Assembly: GCA_020348905.1 (NCBI GenBank)
Contig: CP070756.1
Coordinates: 1,945,123-1,978,066, forward strand
DNA length: 32,944 nucleotides
Direction of reading: 5' to 3'
Origin: Candidatus Zixiibacteriota bacterium
GTDB lineage: Bacteria > Zixibacteria > MSB-5A5 > GN15 > FEB-12
The notes beneath the pieces are model-generated. The model was not told the DNA's origin and did no database searches. It saw nothing but the letters and a program-made list of their open reading frames with translations. A program made the position numbers and the translations under genes. Each line of letters begins with the position of its first letter. Position 1 is the first letter of the stretch. Below are positions 1 through 18,982 of this stretch, piece after piece.

Positions 1-746
1 CATTCCGTACCTGCGGCAGCAGCGGCATTACGCATGTTAGCGTCTGCCGAAGTTCCGTGGAAGTTGGTATGACAGCCCTGACACCACGCGCCGTAGGCGG
101 AAGCCGTCTGACTCGGTTCGTTGAAGTGCACGTTCTGGATGTCATAGTGATCACCACCGTACGCGGCGGAGTTCTCAAAGACATCTGTAGTCAGTACGTT
201 CGTTCCAATCGAGTAGCTGAGGCCAGGCCCAGCCACGCCACCAGCATTGTACAACAGGTTGCGATAGGGATTGTTGCCGGCGGCAACAAAACCACCGTAA
301 CCATGCTGTTGGTGACAGTTGGTGCAGTTCAGACCATCGGCGTTCGACCAGGTGCCTCCCGGGGCAGCATCGGTCGTATTAAGCGTATGACCGGTCTCGT
401 TGAAATACGGGGCCACGTCATCACGGTTGAGGGCGCCAGCCTGACGACCGTTGGTCGGCGTATTACCACCATTTGCCGCCAGCACGTCGGGAGCAAACGT
501 CTGGCCGTCGTGACACGACAGGCACAGAGCATTGATCTCGTTGCGAAGCAGGAAATGGTAAGGTCCGGATGCACCCAGCGGGGTCGTTATACCACCACCG
601 TCACTGTTGTAACCGTGGGTCTGACTGTAGTGCATCACATGGCACTCAGCGCAATTAAGTGACGCACCCGTATGGTAGTCACCGGCAATTGCGCCGCCAG
701 CGAGAAGCGCTATGGCCGCGATTCCCACCAGGGTTAGTTTCTTCAT
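1..746 (-). CDS. OmcS-like multiheme c-type cytochrome, C-terminus cut by window edge
   Basis: Exported electron-transfer protein. ATG start preceded by GGAGG; signal peptide in residues 1-21 with likely cleavage AIA|GDY. Four CXXCH heme sites are visible (CAECH, CLSCH, CTNCH, CQGCH), the first written CAECHVMH. The motif order (CxxCHxMH near the N-terminus, LCLSCHDG, GHTL, CTNCHQQHG, NPYRNLLY, AWCQGCHT) matches the hexaheme protein encoded at 7167-8153, so two further hemes probably lie beyond the left edge. The order also recalls OmcS of Geobacter sulfurreducens (mature N-terminus HSGG..CEGCHTMH, later CSSCHDPHG and WCANCHT), a hexaheme protein that polymerises into extracellular wires; that likeness is from memory and short motifs, so filament formation is an inference. 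It lies 391 bases after the nine-gene cytochrome operon and has its own promoter region. About 248 codons are present. Confidence 0.9.
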   Translation of the reverse strand, partial: MKKLTLVGIAAIALLAGGAIAGDYHTGASLNCAECHVMHYSQTHGYNSDGGGITTPLGASGPYHFLLRNEINALCLSCHDGQTFAPDVLAANGGNTPTNGRQAGALNRDDVAPYFNETGHTLNTTDAAPGGTWSNADGLNCTNCHQQHGYGGFVAAGNNPYRNLLYNAGGVAGPGLSYSIGTNVLTTDVFENSAAYGGDHYDIQNVHFNEPSQTASAYGAWCQGCHTNFHGTSADANMRNAAAAAGTE

Positions 747-862: not shown

Positions 863-878
863 TGTGACAAATTTCACA
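863..878. promoter_or_regulatory. CRP/FNR-family-type palindrome TGTGA-N6-TCACA
   Basis: The sequence TGTGACAAATTTCACA is a perfect match to the TGTGA-N6-TCACA half-site arrangement bound by CRP-type regulators in other bacteria. It lies in the leader of the truncated cytochrome gene, about 117 bases before its start. On the minus strand a TACAAT box (857-862) follows directly, so the palindrome would sit inside a promoter spacer, where it could act as an operator. Which protein binds is unknown. Confidence 0.5.
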
Positions 879-1008: not shown

Positions 1009-1037
1009 ATGCTAACCAGGTTAGTCCTGTTTGTCAA
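1009..1037 (-). promoter_or_regulatory. Sigma70-type promoter with palindromic operator for the left-edge cytochrome
   Basis: On the minus strand TTGACA (1032-1037) is followed after 17 bases by TAGCAT (1009-1014). The spacer and -10 are overlaid by a perfect inverted repeat CTAACC-A-GGTTAG (1012-1024), the place where a repressor would block polymerase. Transcription from here would give a leader of about 255 bases before the ATG. I looked for a GEMM/c-di-GMP-type riboswitch in that leader and did not see its conserved blocks. Confidence 0.5.
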
Positions 1038-1137: not shown

Positions 1138-2145
1138 TTATTTGAAATCGAAGCGCTGAATTCGGTTACCTACCCGCTCGACTATATAGATTACCGAATC
1201 ACCCTGAACCGCCAGATCAGCTGGATATCGGAACTCGCCTGGCCTAAAACCAAAACCACCAACAGTTTGGAGAAATTCACCGGAGTCATCGTAAACCTTT
1301 ATCACCTGCCGGAGACCATCGGCAACCCAGATCGTGACAACCCCCGGATCAACCTCCAAAATGGCTAACCCCGATGGAAAGGAAAGGTCGTCCCTTTCAA
1401 CGTCGTGGCCGCCAAAGCCAAAGAGGTAGGCACCCGAGGTATCGAATACCTTCACGGCTGGTTGGGCGTACAGGTCAGTCGCGTAGATCCTGCCGTCATG
1501 AACCTGTAGCGTCAGGATCGTATTAAAGTCTTCCTCGCCGCTGCCCCGCTTGCCAATAGTCCTCTCCAGACTGTAATAATCATCCAACACCATGATGGTG
1601 ATTAGATCGCCGCCGGTGGCTACATACAATCTATCGGAGCGATCGATTGCCAGACGCTGCGGCTTGATGGTCAGGGTCGTATCTCCATAGAGCTTATTCG
1701 GCTCCACTATCTCCAGCAGCTTGCCACGAAAATCCAGCACCTCGATCTGGTTGGTCAAGTTATCGACCAGGATTATCTCACCACGGCTGTTTACGACCAC
1801 ATCCCTCGGCTCTCCCTTCAAGGAGCGCCCGGTGCGGGGATCGGCCACATAATGGTCAAAGACGAATTTGGACTGAAGCTTTTCGTCGAGGATCACAATC
1901 CGACTATTGCCGCCGTCGGCAACAAACAGCTCCCCGGCTCGCTCATCAGCGAATAGGGCTGAGGCACCTCTGAATTTGGTCTGCCAGCCGTCATCGAACG
2001 CTATTTCAGTGATCGTAATTCTCTCTTCGAGATTGGCAGGCTGGGCGATGGCCAGTGGCGGACACGCGGTCAGAGCCGCCGAGATGATCAGAGTTGCCAA
2101 TAGACCGGGAGTGCTATTGTTTGGAGAACAGGCCGGCAAGTTCAT
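1138..2145 (-). CDS. NHL-repeat beta-propeller protein, exported
   Basis: Probable six-bladed propeller working in the periplasm or outside the cell, last gene of the cytochrome operon. Blades are marked by repeats of the type GELFVADGGNSRIVILD, GEIILVDNLTNQIEVLD, IYATDLYAQPAVKVFD and IWVADGLRQVIKVYD. The ATG chosen has GAGGA eight bases upstream and lies inside the end of the preceding lipoprotein gene; a TTG five codons earlier would add RKR to the signal peptide and cannot be excluded. The signal peptide ends either at a lipobox-like LTAC or at AIA|Q. NHL proteins often sit beside multiheme cytochrome genes in metal-reducing bacteria (one is, as I recall, next to omcS); their exact role is unknown, perhaps assembly or binding. 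A second NHL gene lies in the same operon. Confidence 0.85.
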   Translation of the reverse strand: MNLPACSPNNSTPGLLATLIISAALTACPPLAIAQPANLEERITITEIAFDDGWQTKFRGASALFADERAGELFVADGGNSRIVILDEKLQSKFVFDHYVADPRTGRSLKGEPRDVVVNSRGEIILVDNLTNQIEVLDFRGKLLEIVEPNKLYGDTTLTIKPQRLAIDRSDRLYVATGGDLITIMVLDDYYSLERTIGKRGSGEEDFNTILTLQVHDGRIYATDLYAQPAVKVFDTSGAYLFGFGGHDVERDDLSFPSGLAILEVDPGVVTIWVADGLRQVIKVYDDSGEFLQTVGGFGFRPGEFRYPADLAVQGDSVIYIVERVGNRIQRFDFK

Positions 2146-2701
2146 TGACCGTTTCCTCAACCATTTTGCGGGCCAACTTGTCCGCCGATTTCACCGTACC
2201 GATACCAAAGGCTATCTCACCTTTGTCTCCCCGCCCGTTAGAACTGGCCACCCATATTGTTTTTTTGGAGTGACAATCTATCAATTTGCAGTTGAAGGAT
2301 ACCTGAGGCACCCGGCCCAGAAAATTGTTGTCGAATTCTTCGTACTCAAGAGTGGCGCCCGTCACAATGTAATCCAGACCCATGCCTGACGCCAGGCTGT
2401 CGATCTGCTCATTGGTGAGCGTCGACGACGACCTGATCCGGAAACGGCGCATGTGTTCATATAACTGGCCGAACTCCACCGCCTCGAACCGATTATAACC
2501 CGACATAGTCGAAACAAAATACTCGGTCAGCTTCTCGGCTGCTTTTTCCCGGCCGCTCAGGTTTTCAAAGGGCAGGACAGCCACCCGGGAGGCAGCGGGC
2601 AGAGACTCCTTTATTCGCTTTCGGGTAGACAGACTTGAAGAACACCCCAAGCCCAGGGATACCAGCATCAACACTGTCAAGATGATCAAACGGCGTATCA
2701 T
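2114..2701 (-). CDS. CsgG/TolB-N-like periplasmic lipoprotein (paralogue 1)
   Basis: Small exported protein with the core RVAVLPFENLSG followed by AAEKLTEYF and, later, GLDYIVTGATLEYEEF. This is the layout of the CsgG/FlgO/GNA1162-type fold, whose members are outer-membrane-facing lipoproteins that build or support secretion structures. Start chosen at the ATG giving MIRRLIILTVLML, with GAGG eight bases upstream and four bases after the previous stop. The lipid box GLGC is atypical at its first position. It is a paralogue of the gene just upstream (shared V.V(I/L)PF.NLS..+.AAEK.T). At about 195 residues it is shorter than the curli exporter CsgG (about 270) and lacks an obvious pore-forming segment, so a channel role is not supported; an assembly or accessory role is a guess. 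Confidence 0.75.
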   Translation of the reverse strand: MIRRLIILTVLMLVSLGLGCSSSLSTRKRIKESLPAASRVAVLPFENLSGREKAAEKLTEYFVSTMSGYNRFEAVEFGQLYEHMRRFRIRSSSTLTNEQIDSLASGMGLDYIVTGATLEYEEFDNNFLGRVPQVSFNCKLIDCHSKKTIWVASSNGRGDKGEIAFGIGTVKSADKLARKMVEETVNELAGLFSKQ

Positions 2702-2705
2702 CGTA

Positions 2706-3311
2706 TTACCTCGAGACTTTTCCGAAAGACTGTGCAACCTCACGGCAGACCTTGGTGGTCATCTCGCCCAGGGTGTGCGTTTCACCAAAAGAAAAAATGG
2801 GAAACTTGGGGCCGCCCTTGCGGCTGGTTTCGTAACTCCACACCACCCGGCCGGTCTGGCAATCAATGAAGCGGACAATCAAAGCTACCAGCGGGAACTC
2901 GTCCTGACCGGACCGCACCATGCCGAAGTCCTTGACAGCACCTACGAAAATCCCTTCCACCTGGGACTGTTCGCCGATTGCCACAGCCTGCTCGCTGGTA
3001 AGCTCATCGACTACATTAACCATTGCCTGCGTCACAACCCCGTTAAACACCAGCTCAATGTCACCCTGATTGGCCAGTTCAACCGACTTCAGCATCAGCA
3101 GTTCCGTCATGAAACTGGAGGTAACCTTCTCCGCCGCGTTTCGGTCACTGCTCAGGTTGGAGAACGGTATGACACCTACCCGGGAGTAAAAGCCAAAATC
3201 GGCTTCGTCGTTGACGTACATTCTACCGCCGGCACAGGACACAAGCAAAAGAGCTGAAACGATGATTATCGCACTCTTGATTCTAAACATAGTTCTTCCC
3301 GTAGTCTTCAT
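2706..3311 (-). CDS. CsgG/TolB-N-like periplasmic lipoprotein (paralogue 2)
   Basis: Lipoprotein with a good lipobox (LVSC) after the hydrophobic stretch IKSAIIIVSALL. The mature part carries RVGVIPFSNLSSDRNAAEKVT, then EGIFVGAVKDFG and VRFIDCQTGRVVWSYE, matching its downstream paralogue. The start overlaps the stop of the beta-barrel gene as ATGA, which implies translational coupling; an ATG seven codons later (MFRIK, preceded by GGGAAG) would give a more usual signal peptide. Position between an outer-membrane barrel and a second lipoprotein suggests a job in building or anchoring the cytochrome-porin complex. Function is inferred only from fold-level motifs and neighbours. Confidence 0.75.
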   Translation of the reverse strand: MKTTGRTMFRIKSAIIIVSALLLVSCAGGRMYVNDEADFGFYSRVGVIPFSNLSSDRNAAEKVTSSFMTELLMLKSVELANQGDIELVFNGVVTQAMVNVVDELTSEQAVAIGEQSQVEGIFVGAVKDFGMVRSGQDEFPLVALIVRFIDCQTGRVVWSYETSRKGGPKFPIFSFGETHTLGEMTTKVCREVAQSFGKVSR

Positions 3312-5029
3312 ATTTGTATACTTAACACTCCCTGGACTGATTCGTTTATGATTTTTTCGCCCGCCGCGTTCTGGGTTCGGCTGCGCAGATATCCCAGAGA
3401 TAAGGTAACCTTCCGGCTCAAATACATCAGCAACTGGCCGTTCACGCTTCGAGGCCTTGTTTCTGTCTCTGTGAATTCGTCATCGCCCGTCGCCACTTCT
3501 CGCTTCTGGATCTGGTCATTGACCGATATGTAAAACGTAAAGGCTCGACGAAAGGAATAGCTGAAATAGCCACTGACGGAACTTAAGCTCGACCGTGCGG
3601 CAGTTTTGAAATCAGTATAGATGTAGGTGGCGTTGAGATTGATGTTTCCTCGCGGGATAAAGGTCAAGCCGAGGTTGTAGTTGTCGGAAAAAGAACGGTC
3701 CAGCCGAAGTTTCTCGCCCAGGTACTGCGTCGTCAACCTGAAACGGCCTTCCAGTTTGCGGGAGAAATCAAAACGCATATCGACTGACCGGGTCAACTGG
3801 TAACGACGCTGCTCGTCAAGCGGGTCGCTGTCCCGGGTGAGCCCCAGATCGAGATAGGTTTTAATATACGGTCGCGGAGAGAAATTGAGCGAGGCCTGGT
3901 AGGTATCGAGGTTGTACTTACCGGCATCCACGGTTCCGATTATCACCCCGGCCGTATCGGTAACAGGGGCGACCCTTGGCGATCGCTGAAAAAAGGTTCG
4001 GTTGTAGGTAAGGCGAGTGTCTACCCCATTGCGAAAATACCTGGTGACAGTCACTCCCACGTTCAGATATTCAGTGACACTCCTGTCCTGTTGCCTTTCC
4101 GACTCCTGATACCCTTTGCTGGTTTGAAAACTCAGATAACCGGTCGGTGTGAATTCAAGCAACGCTGAGATATTTTGATTAGTGTTCTCCGATGTCTGGG
4201 CTTGCTGTTCGGCACTGGTAAACATCCCGGAATAGCTCACATTGGCGCTGAGTTTCTCGATAGCGTCGATTATGGCGATCGAGTTCAGCGAGTGGGTATT
4301 CGAGTTCTGACTGAAGGCGGCCCCGGTTTCCCGGCGCGTGTCATAATAGTTATAGGTGACGCTCAAGAAACCCAGGCCGGATACAGCCTCGTTGAAGCCG
4401 AATGTTCCGCTGTAACTTTCTGTCAGGGTTTCACTGCCACCAGCGAGGTTGTTGACCTGTTTCAGGTTGCTGTAATTCGCTCGCAGTGAAACCGGGTCAA
4501 CACGGTGGGAGCTCTCCAGAACCCAGTTGCGGTTATAGCCGTCAAATCGCCTCACTGCCTCCCGGTCAAAATTAGATAGACGTGAGTAGACCATGTTGAA
4601 TGTCGGATAACCGGTATAGTTCAACTGGGTGGTAACTCTCCAGTCTCGATAATAAACATCTATGACGTCAACGCCACCAACCGTGATACCCCGCCGCTTG
4701 TATGGAGAATACCTGACGTTGACGGCGTAACCGTAACTCTTGAGATCAAGATAGTAGATCGGTATAAACTCGTGATAATCCGAGAAAGACTCTTCGCGAC
4801 GCTGAAGATTGGCGGTGAGACGAATATGGTTTTTGTAGAACAGGACGTCCTCGTAATTGAGAATGGCCGTCTCCCTGGTTACATCATCGGTCACCCCATC
4901 ATCACCGTCCTGCGAGATTCGCTCGTATGACAGAGTGGCGTTGCCAAACAGCCTGCCTGCCACCGCCTCACCGGCGAACAAACAAACCGCCGCCAAAACC
5001 AAACAGACTGATCTCTCGATAGTCGACAT
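3308..5029 (-). CDS. Outer-membrane beta-barrel, candidate porin of a porin-cytochrome conduit
   Basis: Protein of 573 residues with signal peptide (MSTIERSVCLVL ... AVA|GRLF) and then, over its whole length, alternating amphipathic strands rich in Tyr, Phe, Arg and Ser, for example VRYSPYKRR, FNMVYSRLSNF, LSANVSYSGMF, VTLSLGYLRSR, which is how large outer-membrane barrels read. Around two dozen strands look possible, comparable to MtrB/PioB-type porins that wrap a cytochrome, although no N-terminal CXXC as in MtrB is present and the last residue is Ile rather than Phe. Its ATG overlaps the stop of the upstream multiheme cytochrome gene as TGATG, so both are made together. That coupling is the main reason for proposing a conduit. 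A general porin or exopolysaccharide-type barrel is the alternative. Confidence 0.8.
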   Translation of the reverse strand: MSTIERSVCLVLAAVCLFAGEAVAGRLFGNATLSYERISQDGDDGVTDDVTRETAILNYEDVLFYKNHIRLTANLQRREESFSDYHEFIPIYYLDLKSYGYAVNVRYSPYKRRGITVGGVDVIDVYYRDWRVTTQLNYTGYPTFNMVYSRLSNFDREAVRRFDGYNRNWVLESSHRVDPVSLRANYSNLKQVNNLAGGSETLTESYSGTFGFNEAVSGLGFLSVTYNYYDTRRETGAAFSQNSNTHSLNSIAIIDAIEKLSANVSYSGMFTSAEQQAQTSENTNQNISALLEFTPTGYLSFQTSKGYQESERQQDRSVTEYLNVGVTVTRYFRNGVDTRLTYNRTFFQRSPRVAPVTDTAGVIIGTVDAGKYNLDTYQASLNFSPRPYIKTYLDLGLTRDSDPLDEQRRYQLTRSVDMRFDFSRKLEGRFRLTTQYLGEKLRLDRSFSDNYNLGLTFIPRGNINLNATYIYTDFKTAARSSLSSVSGYFSYSFRRAFTFYISVNDQIQKREVATGDDEFTETETRPRSVNGQLLMYLSRKVTLSLGYLRSRTQNAAGEKIINESVQGVLSIQI

Positions 5030-7182
5030 CAGTAGGTCTTTCCGTTGGGATGGTGGCAGTTGGCGTAACACTGGTTTTCGGTCGCACTCAGTTGTTCCCA
5101 TCCTTTCAAGTGTCCACCGAACAGAAATGCAGCGGGAAATTCTCCCGGCGTTGCCGCACAGGCCAGGTAGCTGAAATTCGAGCCGTGAATATTGCCAATG
5201 CCGCTGCCATTGGCACAGGTTGGCTCTTCATCGGCATCATAAATTCCGGCGTGACAGCCCCTGCATGATTGACCGTTACGCCCTGAACCACCGGGCTCGG
5301 TGTGGGAGCGACGATCATGATTCTCGAAGCGGGTGCCGGTTCGGGAATCGAGAACGTAATAATTCTCGTTGTGGCAACGCGTACAGAATGCCCTCTGCGC
5401 CGATGGGAAGAGAGTCCCCGGTACCGGCTCTCGAAAATAGGTCTCAATTAAGAGCATGCCGCTGTTGGCGCTGCCATGACCGCTGGTTTCATGACAATCG
5501 AAACAACTTATCAGGTCATGAGCGGCGGTCTGGTTGAACGGCGGCAACATGGTAGTGACAAAGTTGTTCTCTGAACTGGGAACCGTATACGGATTGTTGC
5601 CGACCGCCCGGACGGGATGGTAATTGCTGTTAAGCGGGTCAAATTGCGAGTTGACATCGATCACCGTTGCATTCGGGTCTGAAAACGGGGTCAGAGAAGT
5701 TCCCCCGGGAACCCTGGCATCGAGCGAGAGTGCTCCGTTGGCGTCATGACACTTCAGGCAAAATGAATTCTGAACATCGAGTACCCAGCTTTCAAGCAAA
5801 ACTGAATTAAGATCGCGGGTGAATACCGCAAAGCCCGGCAAGGCCAGACCGTTGTCCGGGTCCCTCAATTCTACCAATCCGTTGGCATGATAAGAGACGT
5901 CAATACTGCCGGTAAGAGCGGTACCTTCCATGTGACAGACGCCGCAATCGTTGTTCGTCACTGACCCGGTATCGCCGACCGCGATGACATGGTGCGCATT
6001 GAGTGAAAATTCACCAACGATCGGCCGGCGGGTTCCCTTAACACTGGAATGACAGGCAACACAATCGCCGCCCGGCGACGGATTGTGAACATTGTTGGAG
6101 GTCGGCGATGAATAATCACGGCCGTGGCAGTCGTAGCAGTGCTCGGCAGCGCCAGCCGCGTGAGCCGTAACCGTGGCCGGAAGAGGCGCCAACGTCAGCC
6201 CCTCGACTGTTCCCCCCAGAGCCAAGCCGTCAGAAGATGTATGACAGCCGAAACAGAACCGGCGCACCTGGGTATTATCATTGCGAATATCGGTTAAATT
6301 ATACCAACCGGAGCGCTGGTCACTGAGCAGGTAGGCATTGCCGCCCAGACTGCCGTTACCGGCTGACCCATGCGGATTATGGCAATCGTAACAGGGTAGT
6401 CGCGCTCCCGATGGAACATAACCGCCACCGGTAGATATTCCGTGGCCGCTGTTATTGCCGGGATTCACCGACCGGTCATAATAATACGCTATCGTTCGAG
6501 AGGTATCGTCCATTCCCACTGGACCGTCGATGCGATGGCATCTTAAACACAGGGCATAATTCTCAGGCTCGAATCCTGATTCCGATCCGGTTATCCCGCT
6601 GTACGTTGTATCCAGCATGTCATGAGGAAAGACCGTACCGTGAACGTTGTGACAGTTATCGCAGGCGCCGTTACCAAACCAGTCCTTGACCGGCATGTCG
6701 GCGTCGGAATAGTGCGGCGAAAAAAGCGGTGTCTCCCAGATGAGTCTTCCCGGCCAGCGTACTCTATTCTCCAGGCCAGGGAGCCTCACACCCCCGGCGT
6801 TGAATTCAAAGTAGCCGGGATCGCTGGAGCCAACCGGCATCCGGTCGGATTCCTGAGCCGGGTAACCCGCCGTACCCCCTGCCGGCTGGTCGGCATGACA
6901 ACCTCCGGCCGAAGCAGAAAAGCAAAGTTCGTTCGAGTTGTAGGTGAACAAGCCGAAAGGAAAAGCGTTGTCGGGATCGTGAGCAACATGACACTGGGCA
7001 CAACTGCCCTGAGGATAATCGACCGTACGCAACACCCCGTTGTCGACCGAACCGTGCGGCGAAAGCCGATACTGCCCGTCATCAGCCAGAACAGCAACCA
7101 CTACTGCCAGACTGATTACCGCTACCGAGGCAGTAGCCATCACCGGATTCCTTCGCCATGAGCGACCTACTTGTTGTGACAT
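5029..7182 (-). CDS. Exported multiheme c-type cytochrome, 12 CXXCH plus CX7CH and CX3CH sites
   Basis: Large exported cytochrome. Twelve canonical heme sites are readable (CAQCH, CDNCH, CLRCH, CYDCH, CFGCH, CYDCH, CVACH, CGVCH, CLKCH, CFDCH, CTRCH, CRGCH). Two further CH-ending motifs have non-standard spacing: CFSASAGGCH after NSNEL, exactly where relatives have LCLSCHDG, and CYANCH near the C-terminus. Signal peptide: the n-region contains GRSWRR and cleavage is likely near VLA|DDG. Start taken at the ATG giving MSQQ (GGGA eight bases upstream), which overlaps the end of the hexaheme gene; an ATG three codons earlier, or one fourteen codons later with AAGGA, is possible. Stop overlaps the beta-barrel start. 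Probably the cytochrome that spans or docks to the barrel, carrying electrons across the outer membrane. Confidence 0.88.
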   Translation of the reverse strand: MSQQVGRSWRRNPVMATASVAVISLAVVVAVLADDGQYRLSPHGSVDNGVLRTVDYPQGSCAQCHVAHDPDNAFPFGLFTYNSNELCFSASAGGCHADQPAGGTAGYPAQESDRMPVGSSDPGYFEFNAGGVRLPGLENRVRWPGRLIWETPLFSPHYSDADMPVKDWFGNGACDNCHNVHGTVFPHDMLDTTYSGITGSESGFEPENYALCLRCHRIDGPVGMDDTSRTIAYYYDRSVNPGNNSGHGISTGGGYVPSGARLPCYDCHNPHGSAGNGSLGGNAYLLSDQRSGWYNLTDIRNDNTQVRRFCFGCHTSSDGLALGGTVEGLTLAPLPATVTAHAAGAAEHCYDCHGRDYSSPTSNNVHNPSPGGDCVACHSSVKGTRRPIVGEFSLNAHHVIAVGDTGSVTNNDCGVCHMEGTALTGSIDVSYHANGLVELRDPDNGLALPGFAVFTRDLNSVLLESWVLDVQNSFCLKCHDANGALSLDARVPGGTSLTPFSDPNATVIDVNSQFDPLNSNYHPVRAVGNNPYTVPSSENNFVTTMLPPFNQTAAHDLISCFDCHETSGHGSANSGMLLIETYFREPVPGTLFPSAQRAFCTRCHNENYYVLDSRTGTRFENHDRRSHTEPGGSGRNGQSCRGCHAGIYDADEEPTCANGSGIGNIHGSNFSYLACAATPGEFPAAFLFGGHLKGWEQLSATENQCYANCHHPNGKTY

Positions 7183-8153
7183 TGCTGGCATCCCGCTATA
7201 AAATTCAAATCTCCTTCAAGATACGACCACAAAAGCGATTTCTCGTTTTGCCCTCCGTGAGCCTTGTGGCAACTGCCGCAAAAAATCCGGTTGGTTTCGG
7301 CCGGCACGCGTGAACTGAGAAAATCAACGGCCGCCGGCACCTCAAACGGTACCCTTTCTATCCCGGACGGATCGTCGGCAAAACCCTCACCGGTGCCACC
7401 GGTCCAGTGAACCGGGTCAGTATGTAAATCCAGCGGAAACTCGTTGATGGTTACATCAACCGGGTGGCTGTTGAAATGTGCCGGAGGTGAAGCCGTGCTG
7501 TTAGCTGACAACTGGTTATGACATGTCACACACCAGGCCGAATAGGCTTGTTTATATCCGATGTTATCACGGCTGTAGGCAATAATACTTCCGGCTGTTG
7601 TTGGAGGTACGTCAGGCGCGAACTGGGCGAACAGATCGCTTCCCTCGGCCAACACGGCCGAATCGCCGACCGCCCGCGGATCGTACAGCAAGTTCCGATA
7701 ATTACCGTTACCATGGACGGCATGGCAACTGGCGCAACTGAGCTCAACATACTCGGCTTCCACCTGAAGGGGTGTAACGCTGCCCAATCCCAGGCTGTGG
7801 CCGGCTATGTTGTCAGCACCTATCAGGCCGAAATATCCCGCCGCACTCTCACCGGAAGCCGTGGCATCGTACATTTGAACCGGCTGCTGCACATCGGGAG
7901 CAGTCGGATCAGAGCCGTCGTGACATGACAGGCAGAGCTCGTTTACGGTATTTTTCAACAGCAGAGTCGAAAAGGGACCGCCCGGAAGCGGCTGCCCATC
8001 CTCCGAAGCATGCTGGATATGACAGTTCTCACAGGCGAGATACGGTTCGATATGCCACTCGCCGGCCCGGCTCGGCGCGCAGACCAGCACCAGTACGAAC
8101 AGTAACACTGTCACGCAGTATGTCTTCACCCGGTAACACCTACTCAAGGGCAT
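7167..8153 (-). CDS. Hexaheme c-type cytochrome, OmcS-like motif order
   Basis: Exported protein of 328 residues with exactly six CXXCH motifs: CENCH, CLSCH, CASCH, CVTCH, CGSCH, CQQCH, the last four residues from the C-terminus. Signal peptide with hydrophobic core VTVLLFVLVLVC and likely cleavage SRA|GEW. ATG start preceded by GGGAGG ten bases away; a GTG eight codons later with AGGTG upstream is an alternative. The order of motifs parallels the cytochrome at the left edge (CxxCHxxH, LCLSCHDG, GHSL, YRNLLY, AWCVTCH). Six hemes, the CxxCHxxH start and a CH-containing C-terminal tail resemble OmcS, but it is about 100 residues shorter. It may be a wire subunit or a soluble electron carrier. 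It lies between an NHL gene and the conduit genes, overlapping both neighbours. Confidence 0.88.
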   Translation of the reverse strand: MPLSRCYRVKTYCVTVLLFVLVLVCAPSRAGEWHIEPYLACENCHIQHASEDGQPLPGGPFSTLLLKNTVNELCLSCHDGSDPTAPDVQQPVQMYDATASGESAAGYFGLIGADNIAGHSLGLGSVTPLQVEAEYVELSCASCHAVHGNGNYRNLLYDPRAVGDSAVLAEGSDLFAQFAPDVPPTTAGSIIAYSRDNIGYKQAYSAWCVTCHNQLSANSTASPPAHFNSHPVDVTINEFPLDLHTDPVHWTGGTGEGFADDPSGIERVPFEVPAAVDFLSSRVPAETNRIFCGSCHKAHGGQNEKSLLWSYLEGDLNFIAGCQQCHNK

Positions 8154-9027
8154 AGAATAACAACCTCCCGGTTTCCTCCAGAACGGCCACGCGGTTATCG
8201 ATAGTACCGGCTAACGCCGCCGGGCTGACAGCCGGATTGAGAAACGGCATTGTGGAAACCTGGTTTCCGGTTGGGTCGAAAATACGAAACTGGCCATTGG
8301 TCTCATCGGCCACCCACAAAAAGTCGCGGCTGTCGACGGCGACGGCCACAGCTTCCCAGCCCCGTTGCTGCGAGGGTTGGTTCCAGCCGGCGTAAAAAAG
8401 GAACTTCCCGTCCGGCGCAAACACCTGAACAGGGAAATTCTTACGATCAGCCGCAACGATCCTGCCCGAAGCCGTAACGGCCAGGTCTGCCGGTGCGAGG
8501 AGTTTTCCTTTACCCGTCCCTTGGCCAACGAGAAAACCTTCAAATTGCCAGTCAGAGCCAAAGGCGGCGATTTTTCCCCTTGCCCCATTCATCAGGAGGT
8601 ATCCAGATTTGGTGCGCGGCGTGATCCGGTCAATGTGATGCCAGTCAGCCAGATCATCTGACAGATTCTTGACGGTATCAACCCTGTCCGGCCTGTCCTT
8701 ATGTATCCGAAGCAAAAGCAGGCTATTGGTTGGCACGAAGATAATATGGGATTCTGACTCAAAGCATATCGCACCGGGCTGATCCAGCCTGGCCTGCTCT
8801 CCGGCCACCCACAGAAGCCGCCCAAAGAGATCGATCACCAAAATCCTGTTGGTGCTCAGATCGCTCACCGCAATACTCTCGCCACCTGGCGACACTGCCA
8901 TGGTTGACGGTCGCCTCAACCGGTACGCATCGCCGAAAACGGTGTATTCAGTATCCAACTGCTGGGTATAACCGGACATGGTGCCCAGGACCATTCCGGT
9001 CAGCAACATGTAACGCAGGATGCGCAA
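8140..9027 (-). CDS. NHL-repeat beta-propeller protein, exported (second copy in operon)
   Basis: Propeller protein with blade motifs such as STMAVSPGGESIAVSD, NRILVIDLFGRLLWVAG, ADLAVTASGRIVAADR, VQVFAPDGKFLFYAG and DFLWVADETNGQFRIFD. Start is uncertain: the chosen TTG gives a good signal peptide (LRILRYMLLTGMVLG) and has GGGGG ten bases upstream; a TTG fourteen codons earlier, overlapping the end of the 42-heme gene, has no clear ribosome site, and no ATG is well placed. Its 3' end overlaps the hexaheme gene by 14 bases. Like the other NHL protein of this operon it is probably periplasmic or extracellular and may help assemble or hold the cytochromes; no enzymatic residues are recognisable. 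Confidence 0.82.
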   Translation of the reverse strand: MRILRYMLLTGMVLGTMSGYTQQLDTEYTVFGDAYRLRRPSTMAVSPGGESIAVSDLSTNRILVIDLFGRLLWVAGEQARLDQPGAICFESESHIIFVPTNSLLLLRIHKDRPDRVDTVKNLSDDLADWHHIDRITPRTKSGYLLMNGARGKIAAFGSDWQFEGFLVGQGTGKGKLLAPADLAVTASGRIVAADRKNFPVQVFAPDGKFLFYAGWNQPSQQRGWEAVAVAVDSRDFLWVADETNGQFRIFDPTGNQVSTMPFLNPAVSPAALAGTIDNRVAVLEETGRLLFYALE

Positions 9028-9058
9028 TGCTGTCGTGCCCCCGTTTGTTCGCCAACCG

Positions 9059-12000
9059 CTATCCCGCAACGGTATGGCAGATTATGCAAAGCTTCCTATC
9101 TTTTTCGGCCACCAGTATCGCCGCATGGTCGGACGAGTGGGCGGAGTGGCAGCCGACACAACTCAACGGTTCTTTTGTCCGCGGATCGGTTACACCGACG
9201 CCCATTGGATGGTAATGCGTCTCCACGGCGTCATCGTGACAGGAGATGCACAGTTCCATAACATCCCCGGTCGTTAACAATCCCTTATCAGCGCTGGTGT
9301 GCGGCAGGTGACAGTTGCCGCAGTCCTCGAACGCCACGTCGTGCTTCACGCTACCGCGAAACTCATCACTATCATGACATCCGAGACAGAGTTGAGGACC
9401 CTGCTTGAGCAAAAGGCTCGTCCCGTACCCCACATGCGGCCCATGGCAGCCGACGCAGCCCTCATCCTGCTGGAGAGGCGCATGAACAAAGGCACTTGTA
9501 CCCTCACTGACAAAATCCTCGTGACAGGTAAAGCAGAGTTGATTTACGCTTGTCACCAGTTGGTGTGGCTGCAGTCCCTCGTGACATGAGGTGCAATCAC
9601 CCTCGGCAAAAGGACCATGCATGTCGGGCAGCAAAAGCCCCTTGGAACCGGCGGGACTGGCGTGTGCGGCATGGCAGTTCTGGCAGTCAACACCTTCGAG
9701 CGGGAATCCTTTGTGGGCGGTTCGTAATTCCCTGGCTTCCAGGTCGTGGCACTGTCCGCACAGCTCAAGTTTGCTGTCGGTCAGAAGGGCCGATTCCGTT
9801 CCTGCATGAGGCAGGTGACAGGAACCACACTCGCCTCCCGCCGCCGGAGCGTGTGGCTCACCTTGCGCAATCTCCTGTTCCAGATCCTTATGGCAGGAAA
9901 AACAGAAACTCTCGGCTGGCTTCGTTGTCAGGGCCGCATAGGGTGAGGCATGTGGTCGGTGGCACTCAAGACAGGCCCCGTCATCGAAAGGCTGGTGTAC
10001 CACAGGGAGCCCCTGCATCTCTTTTACCTCATCATGACACGATAGGCACAGAAGTGCTCCTTCTGCTTTCAATAGATTTTCGCTATCAGCCGCGTGCAGC
10101 CGGTGACAGCCGCCGCAATCGTCCCCGGCGAACGGGGCGTGCACATGAGCCATCTCCAGTCCTTCCGTGACAGACTCATGGCAGGCCGAACACAGGTCGG
10201 TCACTCCGGCAGCCAGGACAACCTTTCCGTCAGGACCCTTTTCATGGCAATCCTCGCAACTCTGCTCGGCGAACGGCGGGTGAGAGATATTCCTGACCAG
10301 CTTGGGCTGCTCCGATACGTGAGGGTTGTGACAGCCAAGACAGTCGGACTCACTGAGGTCATAGCCACCGTGGGTGACAAACAACGAATCATCGAGCTCA
10401 TGACAGGAACCACAAAGTTCCGGCGCGGCGGCGATCACAAACCCGGGATGCTCCGAACCATGAGCTGCATGGCAGGCGTCACAATTCCCCTCGGCAACCG
10501 GTGAATGAGTATTTTGCTTACGGAAAGCCTCGACCAGATCATCGTGGCAGGTATAGCACAGATCGGCACTAATACCGGTAAGTTTCGGCAGTTGGCCAAC
10601 GCTCAATCCACCCACATCTATCTTTTTCATGCGACCAGTTACCAGTTTCGGTTCAGGGCCACCGTGAGGATTGTGGCAACCGGTGCAGTCGCCTTCCCCG
10701 GCGGCGGTGTGTACAAACGCCTGGGTGAGATTCAGCTCCTCATAATCATGACAGGATGAGCAGAGCTCGTTGTTCGATGATGTCAACAGGTGAAGATTTT
10801 CACTATAGTGAGGTGCATGGCAGCTCTGACACTCATCGACCGCCGGAGCATGAGGTACATCCATTTCAACCCGCTTGGCAACATCGACATGGCAGGTCAG
10901 ACACAACTCCGCTCCGCCCTTCACCAGGTGCGCAGCGTCGCTGTAGTGGGGTTCATGACAGTCACTGCAATCACCTGTCAGGTACGGCTGATGGCCTGAA
11001 ACTGCACCGATTGCCTGCCGGTCCACCTCGTGACATTCGGAACACAGGTCTTTTGGCTCACTGCGGAGGATCCCGGCCTGATAACCTTCGTGCGGACGGT
11101 GGCAACCCAGGCAGTCGTCCACCGCTGCGTGCACCACAGCCGCCGAATCCTTCATCCCGGCAAAATCCTCATGGCAGTCCAGACAAAGACCGGCATCGTC
11201 GGTTCTTATCAAACCGGCCCTGGTCGAACCATGAACCTCGTGACAACTGCTGCAGTCACCCAACACCACAGGCATATGAGGCGTCAAACCGGTTCCGGTC
11301 AACACGTCATCGTGACACTCACCGCACAACGTCAACTGATCACTTTTCAGCAGACTGCCGTATCGCGACGAGTGTGAGTTGTGGCAATTGTCGCAGTTTT
11401 CTTCTTCCACGGCGGCGTGAGGAAACGCCGCCGAAGTCATTTCAACAATATCGTCGTGACAGGCGGCACAAATCTGACCCGCCGTGGTCCCCTCTTCAAA
11501 TGCTACTTTGCCATCGGCATCGGGCAGGGAGTGGCAGATTTCACAGTCGCCGCCGGCAAACGGCGCGTGTGTGTCTTCGGCCAGAAGCCCTTTGCTGTCC
11601 GATGAGTGACCTGAGTGACAGTCGCTGCATGGAAGCCCCACGGCGTTCCGGCTGCGGTGTGTCTCCAGCCAGGTATCCTCAGAAATATCATGACACGAGC
11701 CACAGAGATCATTCAGCTCACCCGTGAGAAGTCCGCCGTGCAGACTGTTGTGCGAGGTGTGACAGGTCAGACACTCCATTCCTTCGTAGGGAGCGTGCAC
11801 AAAACCGCGGCCAAGGTCAGATCTAACCGATTCCTCGTGGCAGACCTCGCACAGTGTTTGCCAGTCCCTATCGGCCGGGAGCGATCTTATCATGCCCGCA
11901 TTATCCGACCCGTGCGGATTATGACAATCCCAGCACTTGCCCTGAGCCACCGGGAAATGGACGTCTCCCTGGCCATATTTGATTTCCAGATCAGGGTGAC

Positions 12001-12253
12001 AGCTGTAACACAGCCCCGAGGTAACATCTTTGAGAATGAGCTCTTGCGCAAAACCATGCCGTTTGTGGCAACTTTCGCATTCCTGGTCCACCACCGGCTT
12101 GTGCTTGTATTCGAACTTCGAATACCTGTCTTTAGCATCCTGGTGGCAGTCATAACAGGCCTTTACGGCCCAAGCTGATTTCGGCCATGCAGTTAGCCCC
12201 ACAAAAAATAATATGGAAACGGCAAAAATCCAGTTAGCACGTGTCTTGCGCAC
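9059..12253 (-). CDS. Giant multiheme c-type cytochrome with 42 CXXCH motifs
   Basis: Exported cytochrome of 1064 residues. I count 42 canonical CXXCH sites, first CYDCH near residue 33 and last CIICH at the C-terminus, about one heme per 25 residues. The chain is a tandem array of roughly 50-residue units of the form HAPF-x-G-x-CxxCHxPH ... glL ... LCxxCHD, the doubled-CXXCH pattern. Many extra His residues (HAP, PHA, CHxxH) are available as sixth ligands. Signal peptide ends AWA|VKA. Start is GTG with GAGAG about seven bases upstream. No membrane anchor is visible after the signal, so it could fill the periplasm as a wire or lie on the cell surface. It is the second gene of the operon and by far its largest source of heme. 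Confidence 0.93.
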   Translation of the reverse strand: MRKTRANWIFAVSILFFVGLTAWPKSAWAVKACYDCHQDAKDRYSKFEYKHKPVVDQECESCHKRHGFAQELILKDVTSGLCYSCHPDLEIKYGQGDVHFPVAQGKCWDCHNPHGSDNAGMIRSLPADRDWQTLCEVCHEESVRSDLGRGFVHAPYEGMECLTCHTSHNSLHGGLLTGELNDLCGSCHDISEDTWLETHRSRNAVGLPCSDCHSGHSSDSKGLLAEDTHAPFAGGDCEICHSLPDADGKVAFEEGTTAGQICAACHDDIVEMTSAAFPHAAVEEENCDNCHNSHSSRYGSLLKSDQLTLCGECHDDVLTGTGLTPHMPVVLGDCSSCHEVHGSTRAGLIRTDDAGLCLDCHEDFAGMKDSAAVVHAAVDDCLGCHRPHEGYQAGILRSEPKDLCSECHEVDRQAIGAVSGHQPYLTGDCSDCHEPHYSDAAHLVKGGAELCLTCHVDVAKRVEMDVPHAPAVDECQSCHAPHYSENLHLLTSSNNELCSSCHDYEELNLTQAFVHTAAGEGDCTGCHNPHGGPEPKLVTGRMKKIDVGGLSVGQLPKLTGISADLCYTCHDDLVEAFRKQNTHSPVAEGNCDACHAAHGSEHPGFVIAAAPELCGSCHELDDSLFVTHGGYDLSESDCLGCHNPHVSEQPKLVRNISHPPFAEQSCEDCHEKGPDGKVVLAAGVTDLCSACHESVTEGLEMAHVHAPFAGDDCGGCHRLHAADSENLLKAEGALLCLSCHDEVKEMQGLPVVHQPFDDGACLECHRPHASPYAALTTKPAESFCFSCHKDLEQEIAQGEPHAPAAGGECGSCHLPHAGTESALLTDSKLELCGQCHDLEARELRTAHKGFPLEGVDCQNCHAAHASPAGSKGLLLPDMHGPFAEGDCTSCHEGLQPHQLVTSVNQLCFTCHEDFVSEGTSAFVHAPLQQDEGCVGCHGPHVGYGTSLLLKQGPQLCLGCHDSDEFRGSVKHDVAFEDCGNCHLPHTSADKGLLTTGDVMELCISCHDDAVETHYHPMGVGVTDPRTKEPLSCVGCHSAHSSDHAAILVAEKDRKLCIICHTVAG

Positions 12254-12262
12254 AATACACTC

Positions 12263-12721
12263 TCACTTTCTGGCTGGTGCCTTGATATATTTCTCACCCA
12301 CTCTAAAGTCGACGAGTCGAAAAGCCAGCAAGTCCTCGCGACGAAAATGAGGCGACGATAGAACACTGAATCCCCAGCTTTCCTGCTGGATTTCATCGTC
12401 GAGTGAAACCCGGATTCGCACCGCCGGGTTGTAAAGGGTGTCGGACATCTGAAGTGCTTCGCCTTCCATGGTTATACCCAGATGTGGATTGAAAGCAATC
12501 AGTTCACCTTTGTATTCTTCCTCACCAATGTAAAAGACCCCGTTCATCGCTACTGTATCGATCTGAGAAAACTTGGGGTGAAGCCGGTGGCGAGTCTCTA
12601 TCACAAAGTACTGCTCTTCCTTGCTTTCTTTGGTGGAATCGGCTTGATCAGCGCAAACTTGAGAGGCGACCAACAGGATCAGAACGAGGCTGGCAGTCAC
12701 GGGTGTCTTCATGGTGTTCAT
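12263..12721 (-). CDS. Small exported protein of unknown function, first gene of the cytochrome operon
   Basis: Protein of 152 residues with a signal peptide (TPVTASLVLILLVASQVCA|DQ). The mature part is mostly beta-type with ITMEGEALQMSDTLYNPAVRIRVSLDDEIQQESWGF cut here into NPAVRIRV and QESWGFSV as its most distinctive segments, and a basic C-terminus KYIKAPARK. I do not recognise the family. The NPAVRIRV...WGF...F..VDF pattern faintly recalls the periplasmic part of ResB-type cytochrome c maturation proteins, but it is too weak to name it. No CXXCH. It precedes the 42-heme gene by nine bases and therefore may assist that cytochrome. Either of two ATGs three codons apart could start it. Confidence 0.75.
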   Translation of the reverse strand: MNTMKTPVTASLVLILLVASQVCADQADSTKESKEEQYFVIETRHRLHPKFSQIDTVAMNGVFYIGEEEYKGELIAFNPHLGITMEGEALQMSDTLYNPAVRIRVSLDDEIQQESWGFSVLSSPHFRREDLLAFRLVDFRVGEKYIKAPARK

Positions 12722-12767: not shown

Positions 12768-12795
12768 AAAATAACAAATTTTGTCTTGTTGTCAA
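12768..12795 (-). promoter_or_regulatory. Promoter of the nine-gene cytochrome operon
   Basis: Minus-strand TTGACA (12790-12795), 16-base spacer, TATTTT (12768-12773), in an AT-rich stretch about 45 bases before the first gene. A nine-base word TTCACAAAG (12758-12766) overlaps the expected start site and recurs just downstream of the left-edge cytochrome promoter (978-986). Confidence 0.5.
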
Positions 12796-12952: not shown

Positions 12953-14719
12953 TCACAGCATAAGCTGTTTGCTGGCAAGGTCTCTATACAGGGCGGAACT
13001 GTTCAGAAGTCCGTCGTGAGTCCCCTCATCAACAATCCGCCCTCTGTCCATCACGATAATTCGGTCGGCATGCCGGACGGTCGCAAGACGGTGGGCTACA
13101 ATAACGGCCGTCTTGTTAGTCAGAAGTTCCTTTAACGCCTGTTGTATCAACTCTTCGGACTTGGAATCGAGCGACGAGGTTGCCTCATCGAGAATAATTA
13201 CCGGCGGATCTCTCAGAACGGCCCGTGCCAGGCAAAGCCGCTGCTTCTCGCCACCAGATACGGTCACTCCACGTTCACCTACTTCGGTGTCGTACCCGTT
13301 TTTGAGCCCGATGACAAAATCGTGAATGTTAGCTATCCGGGCCGCTCGCTCAACGGTATCGGTGGTGGCGTTCTGATCGGAATAGGCAATGTTATCAAAA
13401 ACAGACATCTTGAAAAGCGTCGGATCCTGATCCACCAGACTGATGCTTCGCCGCAACGACTTGAGTTCGATCCTCTTTAGATCGATCTCATCAACGGTGA
13501 TTCGTCCGGAATCGGGATCGAAAAAGCGAAGGATAAGATTAATGACGGTGGTCTTCCCGGACCCCGAGGGTCCCACGATTGCCACTGTCTCACCGGGCTT
13601 GATATCCAGATTGAGATCGCTGACCTCGAACCCGGAGTCGTCATACCGGAAATGGACGTTTTCCATTCGAAGGGCCCCACGCACGTCCTGAAGAACCACC
13701 GGTTGCGGGTCCTCATCAATGGCCGGCGGCAGGTCCAGGTATTCGAAAACCCGGTTGACCGATGCCATAGCCGCCTGCACATCTACATTAATAGACGCCA
13801 GGTCCTGAACGGGTCCGTAAAGATAAGTCAGAAGCATATAGAACGCCACGAGAGCACCCAGCTTCATACTTCCGCCCGCGATAAGATAGGTTCCCCAGGC
13901 CAGCACCACAACCGGTCCCAGCATATTAACAAAGTGAACCAGGTTGTATGCCAGCGAAGTGACAATGCTGTTTTTGATATAGAGGCTCCTGAGAAGATCC
14001 AGCACACCGTCGACCTTCTTCTTTTCGGTTTTTTCCTGGCCGAAAGCGCGGACGGTCCTCAGTCCGGTAAGAGATTCCTGAAATCGTCCCTGAAGACGGG
14101 CAACGGTTTCCTGCAAACGTTTGGTCACATCGTGAGCCTTAACTCCAAAGAAATTGGAGAGTATTATGGTGAGGGGTACCGGAATCATGGCCACCAGGGT
14201 CATCTTCCAGTTCACATTAAGAAGATAAATCAGAATACCGATTAGCAACAGGGCGTTCTGGAGGAAGGTCAAGACCGTAACGGCCAGAAGATTCTGTATC
14301 CTGGATACGTCGGAGAGCATGCGGGAGATTATCTCGCCGGTCTGGTGGCGCTGATAAAATCGGAATGAAACCGTTTCGAGATGTTCAAACAGTTCCGAAC
14401 GCATGTCGCTGATTATGGAGGCCCCGATGCGAGTGGCCAGATAGTCCTGGGCCAGTGAGAAGACGACCCGGAAGAAATATATTCCGACCAGCAGAGCCCC
14501 GAACCAGAGGGCGGGCGTCCAGTCAATCCCGTTTTGTGAGGTTTCTATAAGGTGAGGAATCAAGTCATCGATCATGTACTGCACCGCCGCCGGCAATGCC
14601 AGGGCCAGGGCGGCCATGATCATCATGACTATGAATGTGGCGGCTTGAAGGTGCCAGTAAGGACGCAGGTAACCCCACAGTCGCTTGATGACTTTTCCAC
14701 TAAGACGCATCTTAAACAC
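12953..14719 (-). CDS. MsbA-like ABC exporter (fused membrane and ATPase domains), likely RiPP exporter
   Basis: Half-transporter of 588 residues: six-helix membrane domain about 1-330, ATPase domain about 345-588. Walker A GPSGSGKTT (383-391), signature VSGGEKQRL (487-495), Walker B VIILDE (507-512), H-loop His543 in VAHRL are all intact, so it should be active as a homodimer. There is no N-terminal C39 peptidase domain, which distinguishes it from bacteriocin exporters that cut double-Gly leaders. GTG start with GGGA close upstream, or ATG three codons later. It follows the second radical SAM gene by 50 bases and ends the peptide cluster. By sequence alone it could be a lipid or drug exporter; export of the modified peptide is inferred from position. 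Confidence 0.9.
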   Translation of the reverse strand: MFKMRLSGKVIKRLWGYLRPYWHLQAATFIVMMIMAALALALPAAVQYMIDDLIPHLIETSQNGIDWTPALWFGALLVGIYFFRVVFSLAQDYLATRIGASIISDMRSELFEHLETVSFRFYQRHQTGEIISRMLSDVSRIQNLLAVTVLTFLQNALLLIGILIYLLNVNWKMTLVAMIPVPLTIILSNFFGVKAHDVTKRLQETVARLQGRFQESLTGLRTVRAFGQEKTEKKKVDGVLDLLRSLYIKNSIVTSLAYNLVHFVNMLGPVVVLAWGTYLIAGGSMKLGALVAFYMLLTYLYGPVQDLASINVDVQAAMASVNRVFEYLDLPPAIDEDPQPVVLQDVRGALRMENVHFRYDDSGFEVSDLNLDIKPGETVAIVGPSGSGKTTVINLILRFFDPDSGRITVDEIDLKRIELKSLRRSISLVDQDPTLFKMSVFDNIAYSDQNATTDTVERAARIANIHDFVIGLKNGYDTEVGERGVTVSGGEKQRLCLARAVLRDPPVIILDEATSSLDSKSEELIQQALKELLTNKTAVIVAHRLATVRHADRIIVMDRGRIVDEGTHDGLLNSSALYRDLASKQLML

Positions 14720-14769
14720 TGTTCCCGGAAAACGCGGTGAGGGTCCTGGGTGCAGCCGTTGCCGTCAGT

Positions 14770-15852
14770 TCAGACCTGAAACCTGGCAAGAAGCTTCGAG
14801 ACAACTTCGGAATCCACCGATTTAATTCCCTGCTTTTTCTCCATCTGGTAGATGCAGTAAGGGTTGTTGGCCCTTTCACCGGTAGCGGAAACTGACGTCG
14901 TGGCGCACCCGCCGCGACATAGCGGTAGATACCGGCATTCTCGGCATTCCCCGCTGGCCGTTTCCCGCGTGAACTGGCGGTTGTAAAGAAACCCGGTAGG
15001 GTTGTTCCATATTTCCTTGAAAGACGAGTCGCGGACATTCCCCTCGACAAACTCCTCCTGCATTGAAAGACACCCTTTAACCTTGCCATCCGATTCGATA
15101 CCGGCAACCCGGGTGCCGGCATAACACCCCAGGTACGGCTCTCCGCCCCAGAGCTTGGTGCCTTTGCATCCATAGTAACCAATATTCTCGCCAACATCAA
15201 TCTCGATTTCGCTTTCGCGTTCTTGATATTCCAGCAGCTTGTCGATCAGTTTGGGATAGTTGTCCAGACTGAGTACGAAATCACGCGGCATCCGGCCGGT
15301 ACAGGTCGTCATCTGTATCCGCCACTGGGGACAACCAACTTCGATCAGCAACTGACGCATGTCATCAAGCTCGCTCAGATTTATGTTGGAGATCTGACTG
15401 ACAGCGCAGAAAGACATCTCGTTCTTATTCATCAGTCTCATGGCATTGAGGGCCCGTTCCCAGCTCTCGTCGTTTTGACGGATGTAGTTGTGCGTCTTCT
15501 CAATCCCGTCAAAGCTGACGCCGACGTTTGCCATCCCTATTTCCTTGAAGTCACGTACGATTTCATCTGTCATGGCATAGCCATTGCTGATCAGTGCTAC
15601 CCGCACTCCTCTCTTCTTGATGTGCCGGGCCAGGTCTCTCCAATCTTTGCGCAGGAGAGGCTCACCGCCGGATAGCGTTATGGCGGTGCAACCCAGCTCG
15701 GCCAGCTCGTCAATCAGCGCCAGGGCTTCGTCGGTACTCAATTCTTCAGGTCGCACTGTCCCCGCCGAGGTCCCGCAGTGCAAGCAGCGCATGTTGCAGG
15801 CAAAAGTAATCTCCCACACCACCATATAAGGGTAAAACTTGAAGCTATTCAT
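14770..15852 (-). CDS. Radical SAM/SPASM enzyme, second RiPP maturase
   Basis: Iron-sulfur enzyme of 360 residues. The SAM-binding cluster motif CNMRCLHC is at residues 19-26, the GGEP motif at 62-65, and a SPASM-type auxiliary-cluster Cys set is present in the second half (C229, C243, C261, C303, C306, C312, C316, C333, the last part as CRECRYLPLCRGGC). SPASM enzymes mostly modify peptides: thioether, C-C or C-O links, epimerisation, or heme and PQQ-related steps. Its ATG overlaps the stop of the first radical SAM gene as ATGA, so the two are made in concert. No N-terminal leader-binding domain is apparent, unlike its partner. A role on the peptides encoded at 17332-17712 is inferred from operon structure; a heme-modifying role is an alternative. 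Confidence 0.88.
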   Translation of the reverse strand: MNSFKFYPYMVVWEITFACNMRCLHCGTSAGTVRPEELSTDEALALIDELAELGCTAITLSGGEPLLRKDWRDLARHIKKRGVRVALISNGYAMTDEIVRDFKEIGMANVGVSFDGIEKTHNYIRQNDESWERALNAMRLMNKNEMSFCAVSQISNINLSELDDMRQLLIEVGCPQWRIQMTTCTGRMPRDFVLSLDNYPKLIDKLLEYQERESEIEIDVGENIGYYGCKGTKLWGGEPYLGCYAGTRVAGIESDGKVKGCLSMQEEFVEGNVRDSSFKEIWNNPTGFLYNRQFTRETASGECRECRYLPLCRGGCATTSVSATGERANNPYCIYQMEKKQGIKSVDSEVVSKLLARFQV

Positions 15853-18841: not shown

Positions 18842-18982
18842 TCTACTCCTCCTAACTTCACTTAACTCGATTGGCCAATTTTTCAACTGTCCTCGCCGCA
18901 ACAATTGCGCATCGAACAGTTGTCCCGGTACTCCAAAACTTACGATCATCCAATGGTTTCGCTGATGACTTCACCCCTGCGT

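Follow-up and report, generated by a model that had tools for sequence, protein, structure and literature searches.

The window analyzed here is a stretch of 32,944 nucleotides (positions 1945123-1978066 of a 3.27-Mb scaffold) from a Zixibacteria genome of the GN15 group, and it carries a compact set of multiheme cytochrome, porin, lipoprotein and beta-propeller genes that we designate g1 to g10. Nine open reading frames, g1 to g9, run from 12721 to 1138, all on the minus strand, and a sequence-only reading of the window had proposed them as a single tightly spaced operon with at least 60 hemes behind one clear promoter. The coordinates, the spacing, the heme count and the promoter were borne out. 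CXXCH heme-binding motifs number 60 in total (42 in g2, six in g4 and 12 in g5), with a possible 61st site, CX3CH, at residue 708 of g5, and neighboring genes either overlap or lie no more than nine bases apart. Measured on the longest open reading frames, the successive junctions along g1-g9 are +9, -11, -14, -25, -73, -4, -38 and -47 bases; the likely starts of g6 (TGATG at 5029) and g8 (2701) make some of these overlaps smaller. The promoter, TTGACA-16-TATTTT on the minus strand at 12768..12795, was located by consensus scan and recurs before g1 in seven of nine loci. The proposed set of nine genes proved incomplete, as it overlooked a tenth, g10, which encodes an OmcS-like hexaheme cytochrome truncated by a 100-N scaffold gap adjoining the left edge of the window.

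The sequence-only reading had made conservation of gene order the test of its proposal, and the order is indeed kept in relatives. In every complete locus of the same family and order the arrangement g1-g9 is unchanged at 31-81% identity, while in other families of the class a core of g2, the N-terminal half of g5, g6, g7, g8, g9 and g10 is retained at roughly 20-57% identity, and the presence of g1, g3 and g4 varies, as does that of a further heptaheme gene and of the C-terminal half of g5. Relatives bearing the locus go under the names candidate division GN15, Zixiibacteriota or FCB group; one is labelled Ignavibacterium, and its contig is that of a genome of the same order (G042). Among 132 genomes of the phylum, g5 occurs in 19 and g10 in 22, and all 19 g5-bearing genomes also carry g10 (Fisher p about 4e-20, with kinship ignored). 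The distribution is nonetheless patchy, as one genome of the same genus, 96% complete, lacks the set. In another member of the genus (G003) the cluster is split over three places, at 0.50, 1.23 and 1.61 Mb of contig C1 (L014, L022), and the porin gene itself is split into halves that overlap by about 70 residues, a dispersal that looks like rearrangement or misassembly. A scan of genome contigs for spread beyond Zixibacteria, made with two short peptide patterns of limited sensitivity, returned four loci, all apparently Zixibacteria, the mislabelled Ignavibacterium contig among them.

The 42-heme member of the set is g2 (9059..12253, minus), a 1064-residue c-type cytochrome with a signal peptide, no lipobox and 21 Paired_CXXCH stretches. 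Its 42 CXXCH motifs compare with a mean of 0.6 when its residues are shuffled, and exactly 42 are found in every one of 14 homologs (13 share 35-66% identity with the protein of the window), with all 42 alignment columns coinciding. As read from the segment list, the architecture is one of heme pairs whose phase is broken by triple units at hemes 8-10, 25-27 and 34-36, and self-similarity is maximal at shifts of 2, 9 and 17 hemes. Pieces of g2 match MtrA (6r2q_A, a chain whose deposited name is wrong) at E 2.9e-20 and also match DmsE-family models. Because its size is fixed, we read g2 as a part that probably spans a fixed distance, with the reservation that orthologous cytochromes often retain their heme number. 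A literature search for a 42-heme cytochrome returned nothing relevant.

Two further members form a predicted porin-cytochrome pair. The first, g5 (5029..7191, minus), holds 12 CXXCH motifs, and its CX3CH site is present in six of six readable long-form copies. Four relatives at the family or order level and the genomes of L078 to L083 carry the N-terminal hexaheme half alone, so we take this half to be the core of the protein; two genomes that are more distant still (L084, L085) have a diverged g5 of about 520 residues with seven motifs. Against the DmsE/MtrA family g5 scores 22 bits, far under the cut-off of 192. At every readable locus g5 directly precedes g6 (3308..5029, minus, with a likely ATG start at 5029 in a reading frame that extends to 5101). 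No sequence match to g6 was found in Pfam, NCBIfam or the PDB, and the AlphaFold2 (AF2) model (predicted local distance difference test score, pLDDT, 77.4) displays 28 long strands. Searched against PDB folds, this model places MtrB (6r2q_B) first of 741 matches, at E 1.5e-8 and a template modeling (TM) score of 0.45. The model thus predicts g6 to be an outer-membrane beta-barrel, and a multiheme gene adjoins this predicted porin gene, the two being conserved together; these two features characterize the general class of porin-cytochrome conduits. Two other barrel-like proteins encoded in the same genome show no significant similarity to g6.

Immediately downstream lie g7 (2706..3311, minus) and g8 (2114..2743, minus, likely start 2701), which are the sole lipobox proteins of the operon and contain no CXXCH. 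The lipobox cysteine is invariant in the alignment of g7 (Cys26) and, within the family and order, in that of g8, and the two proteins are paralogs (hhalign 99.9%). Profile searches matched g7 to 5t11 (E 2.6e-7) and to PelC 9h80 (E 1.6e-5), and g8 to PelC 9h80 (E 2.8e-9). Only 9h80 was deposited as PelC; 5t10 and 5t11 were deposited as uncharacterized, and we take both to be PelC proteins. The lipoprotein pair had been described earlier as CsgG/TolB-N-like; the pair is real, but it lies nearer to PelC than to CsgG. Assignment to CsgG or LpoB was rejected, with Pfam CsgG at E 0.052, LpoB at E 0.27 (for g7) and CsgG not among the structure profile matches. Twelve subunits of PelC itself assemble into a ring that sits on the export barrel PelB from the periplasmic side (PMC12141448). 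The likeness comprises an outer-membrane-type lipoprotein, a matching domain and a gene beside an outer-membrane barrel gene, whereas the operon differs in having two paralogs rather than one and neither PelB nor any other pel gene. A literature search linking PelC or CsgG to electron transfer returned nothing relevant.

The remaining cytochromes, g4 (7167..8153, minus) and g10 (1..746, minus, its 3' end cut by the scaffold gap), each have six CXXCH motifs, are clearly related to each other and find in OmcS their best PDB profile match (for g4, 6ef8 at E 4.5e-9; for g10, E 0.0045). Homologs of g4 likewise carry six CXXCH, and the gene is missing from one family (f19), while intact g10 homologs come after g9 in most relatives. 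All of 11 g4 and 14 g10 copies share an N-terminal CxxCHxxH, a motif common in paired-heme proteins generally. The similarity to OmcS is distant and the formation of filaments by g4 or g10 is putative. Upstream of g10 lies a long leader with its own promoter-like element, TTGACA-17-TAGCAT (1009..1037, minus), recovered by scan, whose TTGACA is invariant in eight aligned leaders and sits about 280-390 bases upstream of the gene. The same leader contains a palindrome of the CRP-family site form, a CRP/FNR-like TGTGA-N6-TCACA (863..878, no strand assigned), which is perfect in seven of 14 g10 leaders; 0.05 occurrences are expected in the whole 33-kb window. A riboswitch in this leader was considered and rejected, as neither the window nor seven relatives gave an Rfam match at the gathering threshold and the hits in the leader were at chance level.

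The sequence-only reading had further held that the gene set matches no known conduit. This stands insofar as the parts fall outside the definitions of MtrCAB, Omb/Oma/Omc and Ext, there being no lipoprotein cytochrome and g5 scoring below the MtrA/DmsE cut-off; it is too strong in that propellers beside multiheme and porin genes, and OmcS-like genes in conduit cassettes, have been published. With MtrCAB the operon shares a large outer-membrane barrel as best fold match and the coupling of a cytochrome gene to a porin gene, and it differs in that g5, with 12 or six CXXCH, is not an MtrA/DmsE-family decaheme, in that an MtrC-type surface decaheme lipoprotein is absent and in the approximately 28 strands of the g6 model. 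The OmbB-OmaB-OmcB and Ext conduits contain an outer-membrane lipoprotein with a redox cofactor (PMC6148476), in contrast to the heme-free, PelC-matching lipoproteins found here; this distinction, like the comparisons with the Oet cassette and the 16/26-heme operon below, was drawn by description. PCC3 is alike in combining a porin with very heme-rich cytochromes, but its inner-membrane five-helix protein is absent among g1-g10 and its cytochromes vary widely in heme number while that of g2 is constant (PMC5566968).

Among published systems, the Oet cassette and the 16/26-heme operon come nearest. The former, known from syntrophic sulfate reducers, Desulfuromonadales and Geobacterales, comprises OetA, the OetI porin, OetB, OmcX, an OmcS-like protein and Apc2a (PMC10553843), and it resembles the present set in grouping porin-cytochrome conduit genes with genes for OmcS-like and other hexahemes; it differs in that OetB is a lipoprotein cytochrome and the lipoproteins here are heme-free and PelC-like. 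The latter encodes 16-heme and 26-heme cytochromes, a six-bladed propeller and a peptidyl-prolyl isomerase (PPIase) (PMC5539420), and thus shares very large cytochromes and beta-propeller proteins. It has two such cytochromes instead of one (16 and 26 happen to sum to 42), no porin was recognised in it, and no PPIase family match was found in g1-g10. NHL genes have also been reported near cytochrome clusters in Desulfovibrio ferrophilus (PMC9769857) and Geoalkalibacter (PMC12016550). Both conduit cassettes with OmcS-like members (Oet) and propeller operons are already described in Desulfobacterota. The elements that are new are the 42-heme protein with its fixed heme number, the paired PelC-like lipoproteins, the family of the porin and the phylum; a specialist would not have expected the first two of these, nor the constant OmcS-like companion.

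Taken together, the gene set is probably a trans-envelope electron conduit of Zixibacteria, described here as a chain from the inside of the cell to the outside, although electrons may run either way along it and the export proposed by the sequence-only reading is one of the two possible directions. This reading is supported by the retention of order and core, the presence of g10 in 19 of 19 g5-bearing genomes and the 42 invariant heme columns; by the matches of g6 to MtrB, of g2 to MtrA, of g7 and g8 to PelC-type structures and of g4 and g10 to OmcS; and by multiheme cytochrome b561 and NapC-like proteins of the inner membrane, whose genes lie elsewhere in the genome. In such a chain, g2 would be a 42-heme wire whose length suffices to cross a periplasm; it would trade electrons with quinol cytochromes of the inner membrane, encoded outside the operon, and pass them to the hexaheme half at the N terminus of g5, which would be seated within the 28-stranded g6 in the way that MtrB holds MtrA. 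The lipoproteins g7 and g8, which carry no heme, might form a PelC-like collar at the periplasmic side of the barrel that holds or aligns the cytochromes, and the NHL propellers g3 and g9 could act as scaffolds. On the outside, g10, g4 where present and possibly the C-terminal half of g5 would carry electrons onward, perhaps as filaments.

Several points weigh against this reading. The complexes, their localisation and their activity are predictions, and the confidence of the g6 model is middling (TM 0.45 to MtrB). No PDB profile matches g5, so g2 could plug the barrel in its place. The membrane-embedded Trp-149 and the docking Asp-119 that feature in PelC (PMC12141448) are not conserved in g7 or g8, where the aligned columns are variable and hold Gly/Pro or Asp/Lys, which is why we use the term PelC-like for these proteins rather than assigning them to PelC. 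Other conduit-like clusters in the genome mean, moreover, that the operon need not be the main route.

A conduit of the same build running inward, in which electrons are taken up from Fe(II), minerals or partner cells, is a serious possibility, if somewhat less likely than not. The homologous-looking Oet and 16/26-heme cassettes have been proposed to serve electron uptake (PMC5539420, PMC10553843), and Zixibacteria in mine fluids carry marker genes of both iron oxidation and iron reduction (PMC8478452); against uptake, no heme-copper oxidase scored over the cut-off in the assembly, which is 81% complete, and there is no specific evidence either way. It is rather doubtful that g2 is instead an extracellular wire or electron store, with the remainder of the chain as proposed, since the retention of all 42 sites and of the length across the phylum would suit a component of set span more than it would a store, even allowing that orthologs often keep their heme number. 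The presence of a signal peptide and the absence of a membrane anchor would suit an extracellular g2, which would then recall the large extracellular cytochrome of PCC3, a system whose large cytochromes have been assigned to either side (PMC5566968). Least likely is a secretion gate in which g6 and a g7/g8 ring export the OmcS-like hexahemes, and perhaps g2, much as PelC-PelB exports polymer, with electron crossing secondary or left to another conduit: PelC rings are indeed seated on an export barrel (PMC12141448), the gene set is never without g10 and the exit of nanowire cytochromes from the cell has been called unresolved (PMC12307469), but MtrB, rather than an export barrel of 18 or 16 strands, is the fold that the barrel matches best, and the gene of cytochrome g5 always goes with that of the porin.

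Within the conduit reading, a more speculative and on balance unlikely extension is that a PelC-type hetero-ring of g7 and g8 under the 28-strand barrel forms a dedicated gate joining the fixed-length 42-heme periplasmic wire to OmcS-type filaments, such that one set both docks and releases a nanowire. As the periplasmic connection of nanowire cytochromes, like their exit, is stated to be unresolved (PMC12307469), this compact conserved set offers a defined list of proteins for co-expression and imaging. The invariant 42-heme protein makes it testable whether cytochrome wires measure the periplasm, and the gene set provides a specific marker of extracellular electron transfer for Zixibacteria, a phylum without cultured members that has been linked to iron cycling in the subsurface (PMC8478452).

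The first gene of the operon, g1 (12263..12721, minus), encodes a 152-residue exported protein that directly precedes g2 in relatives and has no match in Pfam or NCBIfam. Its AF2 core is confident and its fold matches are not significant; CcsBA structures rank 2 and 16 among them and serve as a lead only, and a ResB-like heme-handling domain was rejected, as a ResB scan of the genome misses g1. Both NHL beta-propellers are recognized by Pfam, g3 (8140..9069, minus) at E 2e-11 and g9 (1138..2160, minus) at E 4e-12; outside the family and order g3 is variable, and g9 stays with the core in nearly all loci. In several relatives the cluster has a 262-residue heptaheme protein as a neighbor (L013 14859-15647, L020 17927-18715, L021 17684-18466). 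It was rejected as a core part, being missing from the genome of the window yet present in many Zixibacteria without the cluster.

Elsewhere in the genome, two further decaheme clusters with barrel-like proteins are found at 1.10 and 2.31 Mb (L087, L088): one decaheme and its neighbor pass the GSU2203 and GSU2204 family cut-offs, and a DmsE-like decaheme is encoded beside a second barrel-like protein. The cluster at 382-394 kb (L090) encodes a cytochrome b561 fusion with 10 hemes, a NapC-like protein with 13 and a further protein with eight, and it may provide a connection to the quinone pool at the inner membrane. The genome, presented as a single contig, is a gapped scaffold, judging from two runs of exactly 100 N in the stretch at 1932000-1946500 (L023 2091-2190 and 13024-13123); the second abuts the start of the window and truncates not only g10 but also a menaquinone-pathway gene on its far side. 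A plasmid location of the locus was considered and gave no match.

Within the window, a row of genes directly upstream of the operon (12953-17195, minus) encodes an ABC transporter and a pair of radical SAM proteins, of which one carries a SPASM domain; the row could be a peptide-modification cluster. A protein of 1420 residues with many PAS and GAF domains and a LuxR-type DNA-binding domain at its end is encoded at 25194-29456 (minus). Between these lies the gene for a tricorn-type protease of 1101 residues (19231-22536, plus), and beside it, at 18062-18949 on the minus strand, is that for a conserved-looking exported protein of 295 residues without a Pfam match.

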